Origin: Rhodobacterales bacterium
GTDB lineage: Bacteria > Pseudomonadota > Alphaproteobacteria > Caulobacterales > Hyphomonadaceae
Direction: 5' to 3'
Assembly: GCA_014763715.1 (NCBI GenBank)
Contig: JACXUV010000002.1
Span: 1 to 64,000 of the forward strand
Length of the DNA stretch: 64,000 bases
Of the stretch, positions 43,787-54,384 are shown one piece after another (the first letter of the stretch is position 1; every line of letters starts with the position of its first letter). The notes under the pieces are model-generated. The model did not search any database, was not told the DNA's origin, and was given only the letters and a program-made list of their open reading frames with translations. The position numbers and the translations under genes are program-made.

Positions 43787-46756
43787 ATGATCAAAAACAG
43801 AGACTCGAAATGTATCTGGCTTGCTGGCGCGTCAGTGCTTGCAATGGGCCTGCTGGCACCTGCCGCAGTGGCTCAGGAAGACGAGGGCACCAGAACACTT
43901 TCGACCGTGACGGTGACGACCCAGAAGGTCGAGGAATCCATCCAGGATGTTCCAATCGCCGTTTCCGCCTTTGACGAGAGTGCGCTTGAGCGCCTGCAGC
44001 TGACCGGTGGTCCGGACCTCGTCAAATCCATCCCGAACGTGTCCTTCACCAAGGGCAACTTCACAGGCTTCAACTTCAAGATCCGCGGCATCGGTGCTGA
44101 CGTGGTCGCCCAGTCGGGCGATGCGGGGGTCGGCATCCACCAGAACGATGTGCCGCTGACGGCAAACCGTCTCTTCGAAGCTGAATTCTATGATGTTGAA
44201 CGGGTCGAGGTGCTGCGGGGCCCCCAAGGGACCCTGTACGGACGGAACGCCACGGGCGGCGTGTTCAACCTGATCACCGCCAAGCCGGTGCTGGGCGAAT
44301 TCCAGGCTGATGCCGAACTCACCTATGGCAACCACAACACCTTCAAAGCCAAGGGCATGGTCAACCTGCCGCTCGGCGAAAAAGCAGCCCTGCGTCTGGC
44401 CGGCTCGGTCCTGCAGCGTGATGGTTATGTGAATAACTCTGTGACCGGCAACGATGTCGATGATCGTGACCTGTCGAGCTACCGTGCCACGTTCGCCATC
44501 GAGCCATTCGACAATCTGCGCGGCTGGGTCTCGTTTGAGCACTTCGAAGAAGATGACAGCCGCCTGCGCTCCGGCAAGCAGCTGTGTAAGAAAGATCCGG
44601 GCTTCTCGAGCTACGCCGGCATTGCCGTCTCGCCGCTTGACCAGCTCGCCACGTCGCTTGGCTGTCAGGATGCACCGCTCAGCCAGTCGAAGGATCGTGT
44701 GAATTCACAAGGCACCCTCGGTGGCGGCCTGGCCATCATCGCAGGCCTTCTGAACGGCGACGCCTTCACCGATCCGGTCAATCCGGACCTGCGCACCATC
44801 GAGTCAGCCTTCGACCCGATGTATGAAGCCGACCAGGACCTGATCACCTGGAAAGGCGAGTGGAACATCACCGACAGCCTGCTCCTCACCTATCTGGGCA
44901 GCCACTCGGAAACCTCCTCTTCCTCGATTGAGGACTACAACAAGGTTGCGCCGACCATCGCGTTCAATGAAACGGCCGGTCCGTTCTTCCTGGCCCCCGG
45001 TTATGAAGCGGTTTACGATCTTCTGTTCCCGGGTGGCGTGGTGAGCGATCCGCAGCTTGGCGTGTCCAACCTGTTCCGGACCTTCGATGAATCCGGCGGG
45101 GCGAGCGAGCAGGATACGCATGAAATCCGTCTGCAGTCGGATTTCGACGGTCCGTTCAACTTCAACCTCGGTGCCATCAAGGTCGACTTCGACGCGATTG
45201 ATCCTTACGACAACCGCGCCGGCTATTATGTGATGTCGAACTCGTTGACGGCCCTGGTCCAGCTCAACAACGCACTTGGCGGATCTATCTTCGGCGGCAA
45301 CATCCCGCTGGATTCCGGCAGTGCCGGAAACCTCGGCCTGTTCAATGGTTCGATGAATGGTGATGGCGGCGAGCAATTCCGGTCGCTCTCCCCTTACCGC
45401 CTGAACTCCACCGCCGTCTTCGGTGAAGGTTATTTCGAAGCATCCGACTCCCTGAAGTTCACCCTTGGCCTTCGCTATACGGACGACAAGAAAGAACAGG
45501 ATGTCGTTCCGTCGTTCCTGTTCGTTCCGCGTGCCCCGGGCTTCGACCCTCTGCAACCGCAACCGATTGTCGGCGCTTCGCCGGATAATGGCGGCGACGG
45601 CACGTTGAACACGCAAGACAAGGAAGTGACGGGCCGTTTTGGTGTCGACTGGAAACCTGATTTCAGCTTCACTGAAGACACTCTGATCTACGCCTTCTAC
45701 TCGAAAGGCTACAAGGGCGGCGGCATCAACCCACCGCAACCGGCGGACAACGCAAATGCATTCCCGCAGACCTTCGACCCGGAATTCGTGAACTCCTACG
45801 AGATCGGTACGAAGAACACCATTCTGGGGGGCACAGCCCAACTGAACGTCACAGGCTTCATGTATGACTATGAAGGCTACCAGATCACGCAGATCATCAA
45901 CCGCTCGTCGGTGAACATCAACGTGGATGCTGAAATCCAGGGCCTCGAAATCGAAGCCCTCTGGACACCAGCAGAGAACTGGTTGCTGACGGCCAACCTC
46001 GGCATTCTGGATGCGAATGTCGTGGATACTTATGGCATCGACGTGCTCGACCGCGCCAATGGCCGGTCCGACCTTGTCGTGCTGAAGAATGCCTCGTCCT
46101 ATTCCAACTGTGTCGTTTCGGCTCAGGGTTACGCGACCCTGCTCGGCGCCATTCAGGCGAACCCTGCCCTGGCAGGCTCCACTCGTGGCCTGTGCAATGG
46201 GGCCTTCGCAGCTGGCATCTATGACCTGGTCTACTCCACTGACGGTGGCAGCGGCGATGCAGCGACCGACCGGGCCGTCGCAGAAGGCTTCCTCGGCCTG
46301 ACCGGCCAGACGGTGACCTATGTCGACTCGAATGGCCAAACGCAGACGGCCAGCCTGCTGGAACCGTTCGAAGGCGACGCGAAAAACGTCGATGGCAATT
46401 CCCTGCCGGGTGCGCCGGACACGACGCTGAACCTCGCAGCGGAATACACTTTCCCGTCCCTCGGGAACTCCAACTGGAGCATGACAATTCGCGGTGACTA
46501 CTACTGGCAGGCCGACAGCTTCAGCCGGATCTGGAACACCCAGCGCGACCAGCTGGACTCCTGGTCCAACGTGAACCTGTCGATCCTCTTTGACAATGAA
46601 GAGACCGGCTGGGGCGTGGAAATCTTCGCCAAGAACCTGACGGACGAAGAAGTCATCACCGGTAACTACCTGACCGATGACTCCTCCGGCCTCTACACCA
46701 ACGTCTTCCTGACCGAGCCGGCGCTCTATGGCGTCACGCTCAAGAAGTCCTGGTAA
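43787..46756 (+). CDS. TonB-dependent receptor
   Basis: A 989-residue outer-membrane receptor. The signal peptide ends near APAAVAQ. The plug domain starts TVTVTTQKVEESIQDVPIAV and shows VEVLRGPQGTLYGRNATGGVFNLITAKP, a diagnostic plug sequence. The rest is a 22-strand barrel with conserved YTDDKKEQD, FAKNLTDEEV and a C terminus ending in KKSW. The long loops and the lack of a siderophore-type signature leave the substrate unknown; such receptors are common in oligotrophic aquatic alphaproteobacteria. A terminator follows. A sugar dehydrogenase gene is next, 125 bases later. Confidence 0.95.
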   Translation: MIKNRDSKCIWLAGASVLAMGLLAPAAVAQEDEGTRTLSTVTVTTQKVEESIQDVPIAVSAFDESALERLQLTGGPDLVKSIPNVSFTKGNFTGFNFKIRGIGADVVAQSGDAGVGIHQNDVPLTANRLFEAEFYDVERVEVLRGPQGTLYGRNATGGVFNLITAKPVLGEFQADAELTYGNHNTFKAKGMVNLPLGEKAALRLAGSVLQRDGYVNNSVTGNDVDDRDLSSYRATFAIEPFDNLRGWVSFEHFEEDDSRLRSGKQLCKKDPGFSSYAGIAVSPLDQLATSLGCQDAPLSQSKDRVNSQGTLGGGLAIIAGLLNGDAFTDPVNPDLRTIESAFDPMYEADQDLITWKGEWNITDSLLLTYLGSHSETSSSSIEDYNKVAPTIAFNETAGPFFLAPGYEAVYDLLFPGGVVSDPQLGVSNLFRTFDESGGASEQDTHEIRLQSDFDGPFNFNLGAIKVDFDAIDPYDNRAGYYVMSNSLTALVQLNNALGGSIFGGNIPLDSGSAGNLGLFNGSMNGDGGEQFRSLSPYRLNSTAVFGEGYFEASDSLKFTLGLRYTDDKKEQDVVPSFLFVPRAPGFDPLQPQPIVGASPDNGGDGTLNTQDKEVTGRFGVDWKPDFSFTEDTLIYAFYSKGYKGGGINPPQPADNANAFPQTFDPEFVNSYEIGTKNTILGGTAQLNVTGFMYDYEGYQITQIINRSSVNINVDAEIQGLEIEALWTPAENWLLTANLGILDANVVDTYGIDVLDRANGRSDLVVLKNASSYSNCVVSAQGYATLLGAIQANPALAGSTRGLCNGAFAAGIYDLVYSTDGGSGDAATDRAVAEGFLGLTGQTVTYVDSNGQTQTASLLEPFEGDAKNVDGNSLPGAPDTTLNLAAEYTFPSLGNSNWSMTIRGDYYWQADSFSRIWNTQRDQLDSWSNVNLSILFDNEETGWGVEIFAKNLTDEEVITGNYLTDDSSGLYTNVFLTEPALYGVTLKKSW

Positions 46757-46782
46757 GGCGCTTCAGGTAACACAACAGATTG

Positions 46783-46810
46783 GGGCGGCCCGGCATGGGC
46801 CGCCCTTTTT
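46783..46810 (+). terminator. Rho-independent terminator of the receptor gene
   Basis: A perfect nine-pair GC stem (46783-46791 with 46797-46805), loop GGCAT, then five T (46806-46810). Confidence 0.93.
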
Positions 46811-46880
46811 GTTTGGTCTCCCGCCCGGCCTGCCCTATGTTGCGCCCCATATTCACACCCACCAGATCCGGAGACGCCCC

Positions 46881-48017
46881 ATGCGCCTGATCCTTGCCGG
46901 CATTGTATCCGCCTTCGCCCTTGCCGCTTGCAGCGCTGAATCCACCGCGCCTGCAGCCTCGCCTGAAGCCTCGAGCGATTTCGAAGTCACTCTGACGCCG
47001 GTAGTCGACGCCGAATTCCCCTGGGGGCTCGCCTTCCTGCCGAATGGCGACCTTCTGTTCAGCGAGAAGGAAAACGGCCTGAAATACGTCACCGGCGGCC
47101 AGGGCACTGCCACGCCCGTCGCCGGCATGCCCCCCGCCATGACCGAGGGACAGGGCGGCTATTTCGGTCTCGTGCTGGATCCGGACTTTGAGAACAACCG
47201 CCTGATCTATGCCGCCTACGCGCAAGGCACACCGACAGACAATGGCACGACCGTCGTCCGGGCCCGTCTCAGCGACGACCACACCACTCTGGAAGACGTG
47301 ACGGAAATCTTCCGTGCCGACTCCCGCGATACGGCCTATCACTTTGGCGGGCGCCTGCAGTTTGCGAATGATGGTACGCTGTTCATATCGCTCGGCGAGG
47401 GCTTCAAATACATGAAGGATGCCCAGGACCCGCACATCACACATGGCTCGCTCATCCGGATCAATTCCGATGGAACAATCCCGGCGGATAATCCGTTTGC
47501 CGATGGTGTGGACGGGAAACCGGCAGTCTATTCCTATGGCCACCGCAACATTCAGGGCCTTTATTACGACAAGCCCAGCGGCACTCTGTATGAAACAGAG
47601 CATGGCCCGAAGGGCGGCGATGAGTTCAATATCATCAAGCCAGGCGCGAACTATGGCTGGCCGGTCATCACCTATGGTGTGAACTATGATGGGACCATCA
47701 TCACCGAGGAAACCGAGAAGGAAGGCATGGAACAGCCCCTCACCTATTGGGTGCCTTCGATCGCACCGTCTGGCCTGACCCGGCTGACCAGCGATGTCTA
47801 TCCCGGATGGAAGGGAGACTTCTTCGTCGGTGGCATGAATGGCCCTGCCGGCATGGTGCTTGTCCGCATCCGGATGGCAGACGGCGCTGTGGCCGAACGT
47901 GAGAACCTGTTCAAGGATGAGTATCCGATCCGCGACGTGGCCCAGTCACCTGACGGACACCTCTATATCGCAACCAAGGATATGGACGGCATCTTCCGCG
48001 TCGACGTCGCGGAATAG
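46881..48017 (+). CDS. PQQ-dependent sugar dehydrogenase-like lipoprotein
   Basis: A 378-residue beta-propeller of the glucose/sorbosone dehydrogenase family (YliI-like). The N terminus MRLILAGIVSAFALAACSAE has the lipobox LAAC with Cys at residue 17, so it is a lipoprotein. Key parts are FPWGLAFLPNGDLLFSEK, HFGGRLQFANDGTLFISLGE, YGHRNIQGLYYD and a Trp in EHGPKGGDEFNIIKPGANYGWP, all typical of this family. It oxidises aldose sugars or similar in the periplasm with PQQ. It starts at ATG 46881, 71 bases after the receptor terminator. Confidence 0.93.
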   Translation: MRLILAGIVSAFALAACSAESTAPAASPEASSDFEVTLTPVVDAEFPWGLAFLPNGDLLFSEKENGLKYVTGGQGTATPVAGMPPAMTEGQGGYFGLVLDPDFENNRLIYAAYAQGTPTDNGTTVVRARLSDDHTTLEDVTEIFRADSRDTAYHFGGRLQFANDGTLFISLGEGFKYMKDAQDPHITHGSLIRINSDGTIPADNPFADGVDGKPAVYSYGHRNIQGLYYDKPSGTLYETEHGPKGGDEFNIIKPGANYGWPVITYGVNYDGTIITEETEKEGMEQPLTYWVPSIAPSGLTRLTSDVYPGWKGDFFVGGMNGPAGMVLVRIRMADGAVAERENLFKDEYPIRDVAQSPDGHLYIATKDMDGIFRVDVAE

Positions 48018-48750: not shown

Positions 48751-49464
48751 TTATGCGGCCTCTTCGACCTCGTTCGATTTCGAGCTCGGGCGCGGATCGC
48801 GCAGCACATAGCCGCGGCCCCAGACCGTTTCGATGTAGTGGTTGCCGCCGGTGGCCTGCTGCAGTTTCTTGCGCAGCTTACAGATGAAGACGTCGATGAT
48901 CTTCAGTTCCGGCTCGTCCATGCCGCCATAGAGGTGATTCAGGAACATTTCCTTGGTCAGCGTCGTGCCCTTCCGGAGGGAAAGCAGCTCGAACATCTGG
49001 TATTCCTTGCCGGTGAGGTGGACGCGTTCGCCTTCCACTTCCACCGTCTTGGCATCGAGGTTCACCAGGATCTCACCGGTGCGGATCACGCTCTCGGCAT
49101 GGCCTTTGGAGCGGCGCACAATGGCGGTGATGCGGGCGATCAGCTCGTCCTTGTTGAACGGCTTGGTGAGGTAGTCATCGGCGCCGTAGCCCAGCGTGCG
49201 GACTTTCGCTTCAATGTCCGGGTTACCGGAGAGGATCATGACCGGCGTATTCACGCGGCCCATGCGCAGCTGCTTGAGAACTTCGTAGCCGGAGATGTCG
49301 GGCAGCGACAGATCGAGGATGATCATGTCGTACTCGTAGACCTTGCCCAGGTCGACGCCCTCTTCCCCCAGATCCGTCGTGTAGATGTTGAAGCCAGCAG
49401 ACTTCAGCATCAGCTCGATGGAACGCGCGACGGCGCTATCGTCTTCAATAAGCAGGACGCGCAT
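48751..49464 (-). CDS. ctrA: Cell-cycle response regulator CtrA
   Basis: A 237-residue OmpR-type regulator and the master control of Caulobacterales cell division, DNA replication and motility. The phospho-acceptor is Asp51 ([10 protein letters not shown]); Lys in LTKPF is conserved. The C-terminal winged helix is near identical to Caulobacter CtrA ([19 protein letters not shown] and [19 protein letters not shown]). The last residues are AA, as needed for ClpXP degradation in Caulobacter. A terminator follows and a candidate CtrA box lies upstream. Confidence 0.97.
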
Positions 49465-49600: not shown

Positions 49601-50443
49601 TTAATTGCCAAGCTCTGCCGCTGGAGCATTGCCGATCAGCATCTGGCTGATCGCAATGGCATCCTGGATAGGCTGGGCCTGAGGATCTGTGGAAATCAGT
49701 GTTTTCTGGCAGCGGATCGCATCGCGGACCTTCGGGTCGCGGATCACCACGCCGGCAAGATGCGGACGGAAGCCGAGGAATGTCTGGCAGGCCCGGGCAA
49801 TCGCCTCATAGGTCCGCTGCCCTGCGGCGCGGCTGTCAGCCTGGTTGATGCACACCACCGGCTCGACATTCGGCGCATAGCCGCGCAGCACCTTGATGAA
49901 GGCATAGGCGTCGGTCATCGAGGTCGGCTCGTCGGTGATCACCATCAGCGCCTTGTCGGCAGCACGGGCAAGACGCATGCAGTTCGCTTCGATACCGGCG
50001 CCAAGGTCGAGGACGACCTGATCGTATTGCAGGGCCAGCGCCGAGAGACCGGCAGCCAAACGGGCAACTTCTTCCGGCGGCAGTTCGGCCAGCGCGCCAG
50101 AACCTGAGCGGCCCGGCAGTACGTCGAAACCGCCTCCGGCAGCCCCGCCATCGACCGGCGTCACCGCGTCATCGAGCTCGACCCAGCCAGCGATCACAGC
50201 AGCGAGGTCCGTCTCGGGCGCGATGCCGAGCTGAACGTCCACGTTGGCGAGGCCAAGGTCCCCGTCCACCAGCAGTGTGCGTTTACCAGCCTGAGCGAAA
50301 GCTGAAGCCAGCGTGATGGCCATGAACGTTTTGCCGACGCCGCCCTTCCCGCTTGCAACCGCGATGATCGAGGCAGGCTCAACCCGGCGCGGCGTGGGCC
50401 GCGGTGCCGGACGTTCCTGCGATTTGCGCATCATGAAGCTCAT
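49601..50443 (-). CDS. flhG: MinD/ParA-family flagellar number regulator
   Basis: A 280-residue P-loop ATPase. The deviant Walker A is ASGKGGVGKTFMAITLA; DGDLGLANVDVQLG and LDLGAGIEANCMRLARAADKAL are the switch motifs. FlhG/FleN controls the number and placement of flagella with FlhF, whose gene overlaps the operon (4 bases apart, upstream). The N-terminal basic/proline stretch (RPAPRPTPRR) is unusual for FlhG but not unique. The position next to flhF supports the naming. Confidence 0.88.
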   Translation of the reverse strand: MSFMMRKSQERPAPRPTPRRVEPASIIAVASGKGGVGKTFMAITLASAFAQAGKRTLLVDGDLGLANVDVQLGIAPETDLAAVIAGWVELDDAVTPVDGGAAGGGFDVLPGRSGSGALAELPPEEVARLAAGLSALALQYDQVVLDLGAGIEANCMRLARAADKALMVITDEPTSMTDAYAFIKVLRGYAPNVEPVVCINQADSRAAGQRTYEAIARACQTFLGFRPHLAGVVIRDPKVRDAIRCQKTLISTDPQAQPIQDAIAISQMLIGNAPAAELGN

Positions 50444-50447
50444 TGGA

Positions 50448-51455
50448 TTACGCAGCTCCTTTCAGGGCGATCACGTCGCCTGGGGCGTCTTCCATCAACA
50501 GGGCGGCGAGGCGTATGGGCGCCGCCGGCACCAGGCCGCCACCGATGAACGGCGTAACGGCAAGATGTGAGAAGGCGATACCGGCCGAAGACAGTGCGGA
50601 GATGGCCCCGCCCCTCCTTCGAACGACATCGAGTTTTGTCAGAATGGCCCGCTTGATGCCTGCCCGGGCAAAGCTGCGGGCGGCTTCAAGCTGGTCGTCC
50701 GGGTGGCCTTCGGCCGAAACGACCAGCACTGGTTCAGCCCGGATGACCGAAATCAGGTCCTGCAGGCTGGCCATGTCATCTTCATCGAACGGATTGATCG
50801 CGGGAATGTCGATCACGCAACGGCGGTTCTGGGCTTTCAGCGTCTTCAGCGTCGCGAACAGCTCGTCCGGGGAGTGGCAGGAGCGGATCTGCCCTTTCTC
50901 CAGTTCAAGGTACGCCGCCAGCTGGTCACCACCTGCGGTGCCGTCGAGATCTGCCGCCACGGGCAGCACCTCGGCACGGACCATGGCAGCCCGGCGGGTC
51001 AACTTTGCAGCGGTCGCCGTGCGCCCATGTCCGGGCGGGCCGACCAGCAGGATATCGCGGTCCAGACGGGCCGGCAGAGGATCGCAGGTCACGATGCGGG
51101 CGAGCCCTTCGGCAATCGCCTCTTCCGGATCCTTCAGATTTTGAATGCGGCCAGCGCCTTCGGCGGCCACCCGGTCTGCAAAACGCTGCGGCGAGCCATG
51201 CCAGAGGAGCGCATCGCGCACGCGGCTGAACAACGGGTTTTCGGTGCCGCGGCCATGGCCGCCGCGCGCTTCGCGCAGGAACAGCGGCTCGTTCGGCACC
51301 ATGCCGACGCCACCCATCTTGTCCACCGCCGCACGGACTTCAACGCCACCATCAATCTCGCGCTCGGACAGGATCACCGCATCGGCGCCCATCTCGGCAA
51401 AAATCATCGCCTTGGCAGCCTCGAACGTCTCGGCGGCGAACATTTTCATACGCAT
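50448..51455 (-). CDS. flhF: FlhF-like SRP-GTPase with decayed nucleotide motifs
   Basis: A 335-residue protein with FlhF layout: an N-terminal MRMKMFAAETFEAAKAMIF typical of FlhF, a linker, and an SRP-type GTPase domain from about residue 110. The P-loop is GPPGHGRT (139-146), with Arg at 145 where Lys is universal. The G3 motif DTAGR is DIPA (216-219). The TKLD motif at 273-276 is intact. FlhF places the first flagellum at the pole with FlhG. These changes suggest weak or absent GTP hydrolysis, or a nucleotide-free scaffold. flhG follows 4 bases downstream. Confidence 0.85.
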   Translation of the reverse strand: MRMKMFAAETFEAAKAMIFAEMGADAVILSEREIDGGVEVRAAVDKMGGVGMVPNEPLFLREARGGHGRGTENPLFSRVRDALLWHGSPQRFADRVAAEGAGRIQNLKDPEEAIAEGLARIVTCDPLPARLDRDILLVGPPGHGRTATAAKLTRRAAMVRAEVLPVAADLDGTAGGDQLAAYLELEKGQIRSCHSPDELFATLKTLKAQNRRCVIDIPAINPFDEDDMASLQDLISVIRAEPVLVVSAEGHPDDQLEAARSFARAGIKRAILTKLDVVRRRGGAISALSSAGIAFSHLAVTPFIGGGLVPAAPIRLAALLMEDAPGDVIALKGAA

Positions 51456-51667: not shown

Positions 51668-51934
51668 TTACGCGGCTTCGCGCGAGTCCACGATCTCGGA
51701 AAGAGTCACGCCGAGTTGCCCATCGGCAACAACCAGGCGCCCCCGCGCCATCAGCCGGTCAGACACATAGATCTCTACTGGCTCATCCGTACGCCGCTCC
51801 AGCGCGACGATGTCATTGGCCGACATGGCGACCAGTTCTTCCATGGACATGCGCAGCTCGCCGAGCACCACATCGACGCGCACAGGCACGTCCATCAGGG
51901 ATTTCTGCAGGGCAGGATTGGCAGGCTTGTTCAT
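51668..51934 (-). CDS. fliN: Flagellar motor switch protein FliN
   Basis: An 88-residue C-ring protein with the SpoA (CheC-like) fold: DVPVRVDVVLGELRMSMEEL, VALERRTDEPVEIYVSDRLMARGRL and VGVTLSEIV. It forms the base of the flagellar switch with FliM and FliG and helps export. It follows flbE/fliH, with 4 bases of overlap between the genes (51931-51934). Confidence 0.93.
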   Translation of the reverse strand: MNKPANPALQKSLMDVPVRVDVVLGELRMSMEELVAMSANDIVALERRTDEPVEIYVSDRLMARGRLVVADGQLGVTLSEIVDSREAA

Positions 51935-52350
51935 GATCCATCCTTCTCTGTCGGGCTGGTGTTCTGACCGAATTCTGGAGTTTGTGCAAACAGGTCTCCC
52001 TGTCCATCCACGATCCGCTGAGCTGTGGCCGTGACCAGACGCAGCGCTGTCTCCCGGAACCCGTCCGAATAGGCGCTCGCCTCCAGATGACCGGCCAGTG
52101 ATACCAGATTCGCCAGGGCTTCCGTCAGGTTTTCGGTCACCTGCTGCAGGCGGGCGTTCTGTTCGACATGCCTAAGAGACATGGCAGCGGCATGGGCCTC
52201 AGCCCGCGCTTCTGTCAGCAGCATGGCCAGGTCCGGCGCCGAAAGCACGATCTTTTCCTCTACCGGCAGGGCCGGAGGCTCTGGTTCCGGCGGCGCGGTA
52301 AAATCGCTACGGAAATCGAAGGGCTGCAGGAATTTGACGGCGCGCTGCAT
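51931..52350 (-). CDS. flbE: FlbE/FliH-like flagellar protein
   Basis: A 139-residue, largely helical protein: PEPEPPALPVEEKIVLSAPD, then long helices (ARAEAHAAAMSLRHVEQNARLQQVTENLTEALANL and SDGFRETALRLVTATAQRIVDGQ). In Caulobacter the gene between fliG and fliN is flbE, a FliH-like regulator of the export ATPase. Position and helix content fit, while similarity by eye is low. The start overlaps the fliG stop (TGATG). Confidence 0.75.
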   Translation of the reverse strand: MQRAVKFLQPFDFRSDFTAPPEPEPPALPVEEKIVLSAPDLAMLLTEARAEAHAAAMSLRHVEQNARLQQVTENLTEALANLVSLAGHLEASAYSDGFRETALRLVTATAQRIVDGQGDLFAQTPEFGQNTSPTEKDGS

Positions 52351-53282
52351 CAGTCTACCAGCTCGTCGTCTTCGACCTGCCCATCGGCGCGGATATCGCC
52401 GCGCTGCATCAGCGTGCGGGCCAGCGCGACCAGTTCCTGCCGCGCCGCTTCGATCTCGCTGCGGCGAACGGGGCCAAGCGAGGCGATTTCCTCACGCAAC
52501 AGGTCGCCTGCGCGCTGGGTCATGTTGGCAAAGAAGACCGCTGCCGTATCCGGCCGGGCGCCTTTCAGCGCCACGACCAGAGCCGCGCGATCGACAGCAG
52601 ACAGGAGCGTCTGCAGACCCGCCGCATCGAGGCCAGTCAGGTCATCGAAAGTGAACATGAGCGCGCGCACTTTCTCACCTGCCCCGGGCTCGGCATGGTC
52701 CAGCGCGGCGAGGAAGGTCTTTTCGGAGCGGCTATCGAGCCGGTCGAAGATACGGGCGACACGTTCATGGCCACTGCCCTGCCCGCTGCCAGCTTTCGCA
52801 GCCAGCATGGCCCCCAGCCGGGTCTCGAATGCGGCCAGCGCGGCCGGGTGAACGGGCCCAAGGTTGAGGAGGCGCTGCATCGCGTCGATCGCCAGTCTCG
52901 GTGGCAGGGCCCGCAACAGACGAGCAGATGTTTCCCCCGGCAGGCGCGACAGAACCAAGGCCACAGTCTGCGCATGCTCACCCGCAAACAGGCCAGCGAG
53001 CGTCTCCGTGCCGACATCGGAGAGGCGGCGCCAGACCGAAGTGCCGGCCTCCACAGGGCTGCGCAGGCGCCGGTGAGCGTCCATGAACCGGGACACGGCC
53101 TCGGACTCGCCGTCTGCCGAAGGGCCGAGGGCATCCATCGCAGCCGTCAGGGCCTGCACTTCGGATTTGGAAAGTTCCGCCCAGATCGGGGCCGCATCCG
53201 GGCCAAGTGCCCGCATCAGCCGCGCAGAGCGCATAAGGCCATCGGCAGGCGTGTCATGCCGGGCAATCGTCAGCGCGCTCAT
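52350..53282 (-). CDS. fliG: Flagellar motor switch protein FliG
   Basis: A 310-residue rotor protein carrying torque to the switch. The armadillo-like domains are recognisable: VSRFMDAHRRLRSPVEAG, HAQTVALVLSRLPGETSARLLRALP, LAALDHAEPGAGEKVRALMFTFDDL and the charged C-terminal helix DTAAVFFANMTQRAGDLLREE. The 310 residues are about 20-30 fewer than E. coli/Caulobacter, mainly at the N terminus, which in other bacteria binds FliF. The start overlaps the fliF stop by 4 bases. Confidence 0.93.
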   Translation of the reverse strand: MSALTIARHDTPADGLMRSARLMRALGPDAAPIWAELSKSEVQALTAAMDALGPSADGESEAVSRFMDAHRRLRSPVEAGTSVWRRLSDVGTETLAGLFAGEHAQTVALVLSRLPGETSARLLRALPPRLAIDAMQRLLNLGPVHPAALAAFETRLGAMLAAKAGSGQGSGHERVARIFDRLDSRSEKTFLAALDHAEPGAGEKVRALMFTFDDLTGLDAAGLQTLLSAVDRAALVVALKGARPDTAAVFFANMTQRAGDLLREEIASLGPVRRSEIEAARQELVALARTLMQRGDIRADGQVEDDELVD

Positions 53283-53944
53283 GCATTGCCTCCATTTCCA
53301 CTCATCCAGGCGCGGACAACATCTGCCGCACGGCCGGGATCACGGCGGGCCAGATCCGCTGCTTCGTCGCCCTGCACAGGCAACGGCCTGACAGACGGCT
53401 CAACAGATTGGGGCGCCATACGCGCAGGCAGGGTTTCCTGCACCAGCTCGACCGGGGCTGTGGATTCATGACGATCCGACTTGAAACCGATCCAGCCAGC
53501 GAGCCCGGCCAGCAGGGCCAGCAGCGAAAGTTCAGCCCAGTCGCGCGGCAGCGGCGCGCCACTGATACCCGGCGCGAAGGCCGCACGCTGAAGCTCCACC
53601 CGCTCGCCCTTGCCCGTGTCGAGCCCGGCGGCCAGCGAAACCATGTTCGACAGCGCGGCATCGTCCACGACGGTCTTGTCATCCAGCAGCAGCAGAACCT
53701 GACGGACACCGCCCGGCTGGCGCGCGATCGACACGCGCACATGCCCCTGCCCGGCCACCGCTTCGGCGACAGAGAGAAGAGACGCTTCGGATTGGGAGAG
53801 CGGCCCCGGCGAGGCCGGTGTGCGCGTCATCACTTCGCTGCCACGCCAGACGAGCAGGCCCAGGGCCACGACGCACGCCGCCAGCGCGAGCGCCCGTGTG
53901 GAAGGCGTCGCGCTGCGCGTGATACCGGGTCTGCCGTACGCCAT
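53279..53944 (-). CDS. fliF: Shortened FliF-like M-ring protein
   Basis: A 221-residue protein at the place of fliF. There is one membrane helix at about residues 18-34 and a second at 138-154 (ELSLLALLAGLAGWIGF). Between them, about 57-125, it resembles the last extracellular ring domain of FliF (GHVRVSIARQ, LLLLDDKTVVDDAALSNM, LAAGLDTGKGERVEL). The C-terminal RRDPGRAADVVRAWM corresponds to the FliG-binding tail. Normal FliF is 530-560 residues, with two more ring-building domains at the N terminus that are absent here. It is coupled to fliG by overlap. It may be a genuine minimal FliF or the product of an in-frame deletion. Confidence 0.78.
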   Translation of the reverse strand: MAYGRPGITRSATPSTRALALAACVVALGLLVWRGSEVMTRTPASPGPLSQSEASLLSVAEAVAGQGHVRVSIARQPGGVRQVLLLLDDKTVVDDAALSNMVSLAAGLDTGKGERVELQRAAFAPGISGAPLPRDWAELSLLALLAGLAGWIGFKSDRHESTAPVELVQETLPARMAPQSVEPSVRPLPVQGDEAADLARRDPGRAADVVRAWMSGNGGNA

Positions 53945-54026: not shown

Positions 54027-54299
54027 CTAGCGGCGATACTGTTGCAGGCGGGTCGTACGAAGACCCTTGGCGCCGTGGCGCAGGTAAAGGCGTTCCCAGG
54101 CCTCGAATTCCTCGTCCGTCAGATTGTAACGGTCGCAGGCGGCCTTGCGGCTCAGCAGGCCACCGGAAACGGCGGCAACTACTTCCGCCTTGCGGCGGGT
54201 GACCCAACGGGAAATATTCGGCGACGGGAGATCCGCCATTGTGAGCTTCTGGCCGTCCGGGCCTTTCACGCTCGTCGGTTTTGCGTTCTGCTGTTCCAT
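54027..54299 (-). CDS. sciP: CtrA-inhibiting protein SciP (DUF1153)
   Basis: A small helix-turn-helix protein that binds CtrA and blocks transcription of its target genes in swarmer cells. The DUF1153 core is plain: PSPNISRWVTRRKAEVVAAV, GGLLSRKAACDRYNLTDEEF, EAWERLYLRHGAKGLRTTRLQ and a final QQYRR. Using ATG at 54299 gives 90 residues; a TTG at 54317 would add six. Its neighbours are fliF on the same strand and ctrA about 5 kb on, an arrangement that recalls Caulobacter, where sciP lies next to flagellar genes. Confidence 0.9.
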   Translation of the reverse strand: MEQQNAKPTSVKGPDGQKLTMADLPSPNISRWVTRRKAEVVAAVSGGLLSRKAACDRYNLTDEEFEAWERLYLRHGAKGLRTTRLQQYRR

Positions 54300-54384
54300 A
54301 TCCACACCATCTTCCAATAGAGGGCGAGCACTCCTTCTGGAGAGCCCGGAATATGGACACTACGCACTTCCTCTTAAGCCCACG

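Follow-up and report, generated by a model that had tools for sequence, protein, structure and literature searches.

A gene of the Hyphomonadaceae that stands in the fliF position and is coupled to fliG encodes a protein of 221 residues, which raises the question of what a FliF of this size could build. An earlier note on this DNA had proposed that the short protein forms the base of the cell's flagellum, or that another protein supplies the domains it lacks. The gene lies in a window of 64,000 nucleotides (the whole stretch of DNA that was analysed), and its features are collected in Table 1. The short protein is called mini-FliF here, and the parts that accompany it carry the suffix 2.

Table 1. 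Features of the mini-FliF locus and of two genes found elsewhere in the genome; positions are those of the window unless a locus prefix (L) is given.
Feature	Position	Strand	Remarks
CtrA response regulator	48751..49464	-	NF045991, 411 bits
FlhG/MinD-like ATPase	49601..50443	-	Pfam/NCBIfam; 13 of 20 loci
FlhF-like SRP GTPase	50448..51455	-	Pfam/NCBIfam; in the fetched stretch of 13 of 20 loci
FliN2	51668..51934	-	88 aa; SpoA/FliMN_C
FliH2	51931..52350	-	139 aa; start and end motifs of the family FliH; no convincing Pfam match
FliG2	52350..53282	-	310 aa; N domain shortened, FliG_C with torque residues
mini-FliF	53279..53944	-	221 aa; TM1 - RBM3 - TM2 - putative FliG-binding tail
Putative FliG-binding tail, mini-FliF residues 192-214	53303..53371	-	C-terminal; alignment; Salmonella FliF and hhalign matches
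Transmembrane helix 2, mini-FliF residues 133-159	53468..53548	-	AF2 model
RBM3-like ring-building domain, mini-FliF residues 51-121	53582..53794	-	without beta-collar insertion; AF2, Salmonella FliF alignment, Foldseek
Transmembrane helix 1, mini-FliF residues 16-40	53825..53899	-	AF2 model; alignment A1
SciP, CtrA inhibitor	54027..54317	-	NF051866, 131 bits; locus marker in short- and full-FliF genomes
FliM2	L091:15089-16165
C100 MotB	L009:15468-16280

The mini-FliF frame is intact, with an ATG start, 221 codons and a stop that overlaps the FliG2 start (ATGA). Since SciP ends 82 bases before this start, the roughly 300 missing residues are not hidden upstream. Searches of mini-FliF against Pfam and NCBIfam returned no family at E<=1; in Pfam at this threshold neither RBM1/RBM2 (PF01514, YscJ_FliF) nor the FliF C-terminal family PF08345 (RBM3 with its collar) was detected, and the full-length FliF encoded on contig C100 of the same genome scores 119 bits against the latter. 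Homology to FliF over RBM3, TM2 and the tail was found by profile comparison. An alignment of 31 short relatives, which align along their length (alignment A1), gave a profile that matched Salmonella FliF with E 3.8e-6, mainly over residues 406-559; residues 241-269 form a second, weak piece of 7.7 bits on the other side of the collar. Comparison by hhalign with the full FliF proteins that occupy the same position in other genera of the family gave 93.8 and 95.5%. In class-wide and order-wide searches, where at most seven first-look candidates were scored per genome and a short form in another family may have escaped, the A1 profile matched in 122 of 385 genomes of the class (best E 3.4e-14), nearly always towards the C-terminus of long FliF frames except in two genomes of the own genus, and a few weak ones, with E above 1e-6, came from frames that were short or cut; among the matches listed for the order-wide sample of 398 genomes, the 66 with E 1.6e-35 or better all fell in this family, and the next (5e-11 and weaker) were mostly partial and in long FliF frames.

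The AF2 model built from 31 sequences had a mean pLDDT of 79, with ten-residue blocks over residues 51-120 at 92-97, and predicted an alpha-beta-beta-alpha-beta fold for residues 51-121, a helix on either side of this domain that would span the membrane, and two tail helices (192-201 and 203-214). The tail carries a putative FliG-binding motif in a gene coupled to fliG, and its residues P203 and W213 are invariant in 31/31 rows. A Foldseek search with the model found FliF RBM3/collar with probability 1.00 but E 0.012; against the PDB, FliF MS-ring chains ranked first, third and fifth (probability 0.99-1.00) with ribosomal chains between them, and no match had E < 0.001. Together, the profiles and the model indicate that mini-FliF is a FliF without RBM1, RBM2 and the beta-collar, reduced to TM1, RBM3, TM2 and a predicted FliG-binding tail, and to our knowledge it is the smallest FliF known. 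The earlier note had listed as retained a pair of membrane helices, the final ring domain and the tail that binds FliG, which the model and the alignments bear out, and as absent the N-terminal ring-building domains, with which the missing PF01514 match and the 82 bases to SciP agree.

In the own genome, PF01514 finds a single FliF, of 503 residues, on contig C100, and mini-FliF as the cell's only FliF is thereby ruled out. C100 also holds the sole FlhA of the genome, FliP, a FliG of 369 aa, FliN, a FliM-like protein, MotA and MotB. Because C100 has its own FliF, rotor, stator and export genes, mini-FliF is not the base of the C100 flagellum. The search for a separate full-length fliF that the earlier note had recommended was thus successful, and its proposal of a short FliF under the cell's flagellum has to be given up together with that of a protein supplying the missing domains, none being needed. 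As a separate observation, the C100-type FliG (L009:9368-10477, L104) lacks two of the positions K264, R281, D288, D289 and R297 (numbered on the Salmonella chain) that we take to be torque residues, with Q/T at K264 and N/A at R297 in 2/2 rows; judged by these residues, the swimming flagellum would itself appear unusual.

The genetic context of mini-FliF is highly regular. SciP, mini-FliF, FliG2, FliH2 and FliN2 stand together in all 20 fetched loci (FliG2 being in two frames in G089), and in 13 of them FlhF, FlhG and CtrA then follow within the fetched stretch. Genera of the family with the other type of flagellum have SciP-fliF(full)-fliG-(fliH)-fliN in 7/7 loci and flhF-flhG further on in 6/7, with FlhA placed in the same cluster. 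Mini-FliF is therefore the positional counterpart of the full FliF of these genera, and the hhalign profile comparison agrees. According to the earlier note, a long FliF at this locus in relatives would speak against a genuine short form; such a protein does occur in the other genera (all seven loci), but 41 of 42 genomes of the own genus have the short form, which points to an old reduction and not to an error. The short FliF is thus confirmed as a real, intact and conserved anomaly.

The neighbouring proteins differ from their standard families to varying degrees. FliG2 matches FliG_C, FliG_M and FliG_N above the Pfam cut-offs and scores 144.6 bits against the TIGR00207 equivalog (cut-off 226.7). 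Its best FliG_N stretch spans positions 4-58 of 104, and three helices make up the N domain in the model, in line with the remark of the earlier note that FliG is short at the end that binds FliF. FliN2 scores 79.4 bits against TIGR02480 (cut-off 84.05) and 75.7 against FliMN_C (cut-off 23.8). FliH2 keeps the PF-F--DF start and the DLF end of the family FliH and is missing about 70-85 internal residues as read from three usable FliH rows (the L100, L101 and L102 ORFs), so that it looks reduced in the same way as mini-FliF. In the full-FliF genera FliH ends in QLDLF (L100:5989-6621, L101:10400-11017, L102:9760-10395), an end that presumably resembles a sliding-clamp binding motif, though probably by coincidence; FliH2 ends in GQGDLF or GQGNLF in most rows. 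Elsewhere in the window, the plus strand of 43787-48017 encodes a 989-aa protein and then a 429-aa protein, which we take to be TonB-receptor-like and sugar-dehydrogenase-like, respectively.

Beyond the locus, the own genome encodes a second copy of three more motor parts: a FliM-like protein on C122, MotA on C38 and MotB on C103. The parts of this second set thus lie on four contigs (C106, C122, C38 and C103) and are not kept by linkage alone. FliM2 scores 40.7 bits against FliMN_C (cut-off 23.8) and 12.5 against its middle domain PF02154 (cut-off 27), and adjoins dksA in its own locus and in 4/4 loci of genomes without a flagellum; dksA and fliM are about 5 kb apart in L316, the single full-FliF locus inspected. 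Near dksA and FliM2 another frame (L091:12768-14057, minus strand) encodes 429 aa with a hydrophobic segment at the N-terminus and no family match; its product is 35-46% conserved in the four loci fetched from flagellum-less genomes. MotA2 scores 303.8 bits against the TIGR03818 MotA1 equivalog, exactly the cut-off of 303.8, and has no neighbours in common with the MotA loci of full-FliF genera. MotB2 is the positional ortholog of the MotB of those genera, with the flanking genes on both sides in common in 4/4 loci. It scores 170.7 bits against the MotB equivalog NF006548 (cut-off 277) and has a MotB_plug, the channel Asp (16/16 aligned rows, 12 of them from mini-FliF genomes), a shortened linker and an OmpA (peptidoglycan-binding) domain close to MotB structures. 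In 29 FliG2 rows from 28 genomes, the torque sites are conserved at K264 (28 rows), R281 (29), D289 (an acid in 29) and R297 (R/K in 28), whereas only 17 rows have an acid at D288. A protein of about 197 aa with no Pfam or NCBIfam match (L171:10103-10693, plus strand, with matching places in L165-L170, L172 and L176-L178) is a near neighbour of MotA2 at each of the ten other loci compared and is not seen at the five MotA loci that belong to the other flagellum type; it is a possible partner.

Mini-FliF occurs in 72 of 105 genomes of the family. These carriers are budding marine bacteria, with Hyphomonas (H. jannaschiana among them) and Henriciella as the two main genera. No internal stop is present in any mini-FliF match listed. 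In G043 (Hyphomonas oceanitis) a frameshift or assembly error divides the gene near the tail into two overlapping frames (G043:C1:96398-97026, L035), and in G078 the contig ends within it. The 105 genomes were divided by their FlhA, or by genus where FlhA was fragmentary. Twenty-seven genomes in five genera have the higher-scoring FlhA type, with a PF01514 FliF in 26 and mini-FliF in none; three of these full-FliF genomes (G079, G081 and G098) match FliF a second time and FlhA more than once, perhaps through another flagellar or type III system. With the C100-type flagellum, mini-FliF is present in 64 of 65 genomes, the one miss being 74% complete. FlhA is absent from 13 genomes, and eight of these (G061, G073, G002, G003, G021, G026, G029 and G088; completeness 80-100%, at least three being MAGs) have mini-FliF without PF01514 and FlhA. 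As a sideline, contigs titled Candidatus Sulfopaludibacter and Acidobacteria (L192, L196) carry Hyphomonas-type FliG2, and these records look mislabelled.

The eight genomes retain the other parts of the second set as well; their loss of the flagellum is judged from missing FliF and FlhA and from how many MotA, MotB and FliMN_C proteins they have, and FliG was searched in the own genome only. MotA is present exactly once in 8/8 with second-type scores (five confirmed by sequence), and MotB once in 7/8 with second-type scores (six confirmed by sequence; none in G088); flagellated relatives have two MotA in 64/65 and two MotB in 64/65 (one has three). Each of the eight has FliM2 and exactly two FliMN_C proteins, where 60 of 65 flagellated relatives have exactly four. 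The second set has no FlhA of its own, as FlhA is absent from the eight genomes that have the system. The other five genomes without FlhA show various remnants. G031 has a shorter, diverged FliF copy between SciP and FliG2 (L179:4008-4400, minus strand, a 131-codon frame); G032 has MotA, MotB and FliM2, with mini-FliF and FliN2 not found; G023 (fragmented, 590 contigs) has two MotA, two MotB and FliM2 and no FliF; G013 has FliN2, FlhF, FlhG, CtrA and a diverged FliM2, lacks MotA and MotB, and in a fetched stretch of 18 kb has neither mini-FliF nor FliG2; and G001 has almost nothing of the second set.

We consider it somewhat more likely than not that mini-FliF is the S-ring core of a second, filament-less motor of flagellar type, in which the ancestral Caulobacter-type rotor and stator were kept without export and filament. 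The lineage of Hyphomonas, Henriciella and relatives would have dropped the export gate, rod, hook and filament of its ancestral Caulobacter-type flagellum and handed swimming over to a different one, that of the C100 cluster, while the old rotor (mini-FliF, FliG2, FliM2, FliN2), the stator (MotA2, MotB2) and often the placement proteins FlhF/FlhG were kept. FliF would then have shrunk to the part that makes the ring and holds FliG. In such a motor the RBM3 domains would oligomerise into an S-ring between the two membrane helices; RBM3 alone makes rings in Salmonella, according to PMC8786727. The mini-FliF tail would recruit FliG2, FliG2 would carry FliM2 and FliN2, and peptidoglycan-anchored MotA2/MotB2 would push on FliG2 using the ion gradient. 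With no shaft, rod or filament the product would not be swimming, and the motor may do another job; its output could be a signal from stator engagement or load, placed at a pole and timed by CtrA. That the set amounts to a complete ion-driven rotary motor of minimal S-ring, C-ring and MotAB stator, cut from the flagellum, without export gate, rod and filament, and serving cells that swim by another flagellum, or do not swim, as a dedicated mechanical or energy sensor or force generator, is in our judgement evenly balanced between true and false. Such a motor would separate the motor function from export and filament, mini-FliF would suggest which part of FliF suffices to hold a C-ring, and these bacteria would offer motor-based signalling for study without swimming.

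The main rival to a motor is a static structure: mini-FliF, FliG2 and FliN2 would not rotate but would serve at the pole as a scaffold or landmark for the organisation of FlhF/FlhG, of CtrA-pathway proteins or of cell-cycle checkpoints, and the stator would be kept for another reason. The linkage to SciP in every fetched locus, and to FlhF, FlhG and CtrA in 13 of the 20, would suit such a role, and a FliH-like protein kept without FlhA suggests a structural use. The torque residues of FliG2, however, persist in the flagellum-less genomes together with the ring, MotA2 and a MotB2 with its channel Asp and peptidoglycan-binding domain, and this counts against a scaffold since a scaffold needs none of these parts; we regard it as unlikely, though the most serious of the alternatives.

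It is less likely again that the mini-FliF set serves the C100 flagellum as an accessory, either as a second ring or as a reserve of C-ring parts mixing with the full FliF. The nearly perfect co-occurrence with the C100-type flagellum and the absence of mini-FliF from all 27 genomes with the other type are what one would expect of an accessory, and the A1 profile weakly matches the tail of the C100 FliF (1.2e-4). C100, however, encodes its own FliG, FliN, FliM-like protein, MotA and MotB, and a FliG tree of 87 rows placed two C100-type rows far from the 29 mini-type rows (28 genomes, G061 twice), which form one group (100/100), seven full-FliF rows forming another. From this tree only the single clade and its separation from the C100 type were used; the mini-type group joins Sphingomonads at 92/89, possibly through long-branch attraction. 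A role as accessory of the C100 flagellum only is rejected by the eight genomes that keep the set without FliF or FlhA.

A decaying, functionless relic is very improbable in our view. Such decay might be read from the shortened FliF, FliH, FliG_N and MotB linker, from the loss of parts in some genomes and from the long stem of the FliG2 clade (3 changes per column). This stem, taken with the D288 site, indicates that constraint has shifted; it fits a changed role, but relaxed constraint also. Against a relic, mini-FliF is one continuous frame in nearly all 72 genomes, the parts stay together in the eight flagellum-less genomes although they are spread over C106, C122, C38 and C103, and the set is under purifying selection. 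By the Nei-Gojobori method, with dS up to 1.8 and values accordingly approximate, dN/dS of mini-FliF was 0.07-0.22 in 14 pairs and 0.14-0.24 in three pairs with one flagellum-less member, and between two flagellum-less members of a genus in which FlhA is missing from all three genomes it was 0.19 for mini-FliF, 0.13 for FliH2, 0.05 for FliN2 and 0.14 for MotB2. The whole range of 0.05-0.24, including that between two flagellum-less genomes, opposes a neutral relic. A sequencing error, frameshift, truncation or misassembly of a normal fliF, for which no sign was found in the own genome, has a negligible chance and is ruled out by the 82-base gap to SciP and the recurrence of the short form in 72/105 family genomes, 41/42 in the genus.

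Returning to a filament-less second motor as the preferred reading, its most likely job would be force-coupled signalling, which we favour because the parts needed by the Caulobacter adhesion pathway are of the kind kept here. According to PMC7885107, that mechanical pathway needs MotB, an assembled inner-membrane rotor and the stator-associated diguanylate cyclase DgcB, and mutants stalled after rotor assembly activate it. The analogy is weakened by the same paper, whose authors favour load on the filament and argue against a tetherless sensor; the Caulobacter surface-sensing motor carries a filament, unlike the motor proposed here. Flagellated swarmer cells are on record for Hyphomonas neptunium (PMC7200025), complete flagellar gene loss for Caulobacteraceae (PMC12700997), and a bacterium without flagella that nevertheless carries numerous flagellar genes has been reported (PMC9927559). 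Among the open-licence titles and abstract openings that were listed, no description of a short FliF or a retained motor in Hyphomonadaceae was found.

Partial flagellar sets of non-motile bacteria also comprise rotor proteins without a filament; PMC12199754 gives these for 11% of non-motile species and asks what the use of half a motor might be, and words beginning with "hyphomona" are absent from its main text. The set described here differs in being a coherent rotor and stator with a rebuilt FliF, conserved across several genera. A hat-shaped inner-membrane complex of MS-ring size, related to the flagellar export system, is reported from species including Hyphomonas neptunium (PMC9380563); that complex, however, occurs in many unrelated bacteria and is tied to export proteins, and FlhA is absent from the eight flagellum-less genomes here. 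Basal-body RBM proteins of type III secretion systems have the same RBM fold as mini-FliF, a PrgH-PrgK model being among the Foldseek matches. SpoIIIAG has an RBM fold too, and we know of no FliG-binding tail or motor in either. With FliF itself, mini-FliF has in common the order TM-RBM3-TM-tail, the coupling to FliG, the tail motif and the profile homology; it differs in lacking RBM1, RBM2 and the beta-collar, in its length (221 versus about 500-600 residues), in giving no Pfam or NCBIfam FliF match and in a locus without an export gene. A further counterpart is the full-FliF operon beside SciP in other genera of the family, which we take to resemble the Caulobacter-type fliF-fliG-fliH-fliN: its gene order and neighbours are like those of the mini-FliF locus, and it differs in having a full FliF, FlhA in the cluster, longer FliG frames and, in the three loci read, a longer FliH.
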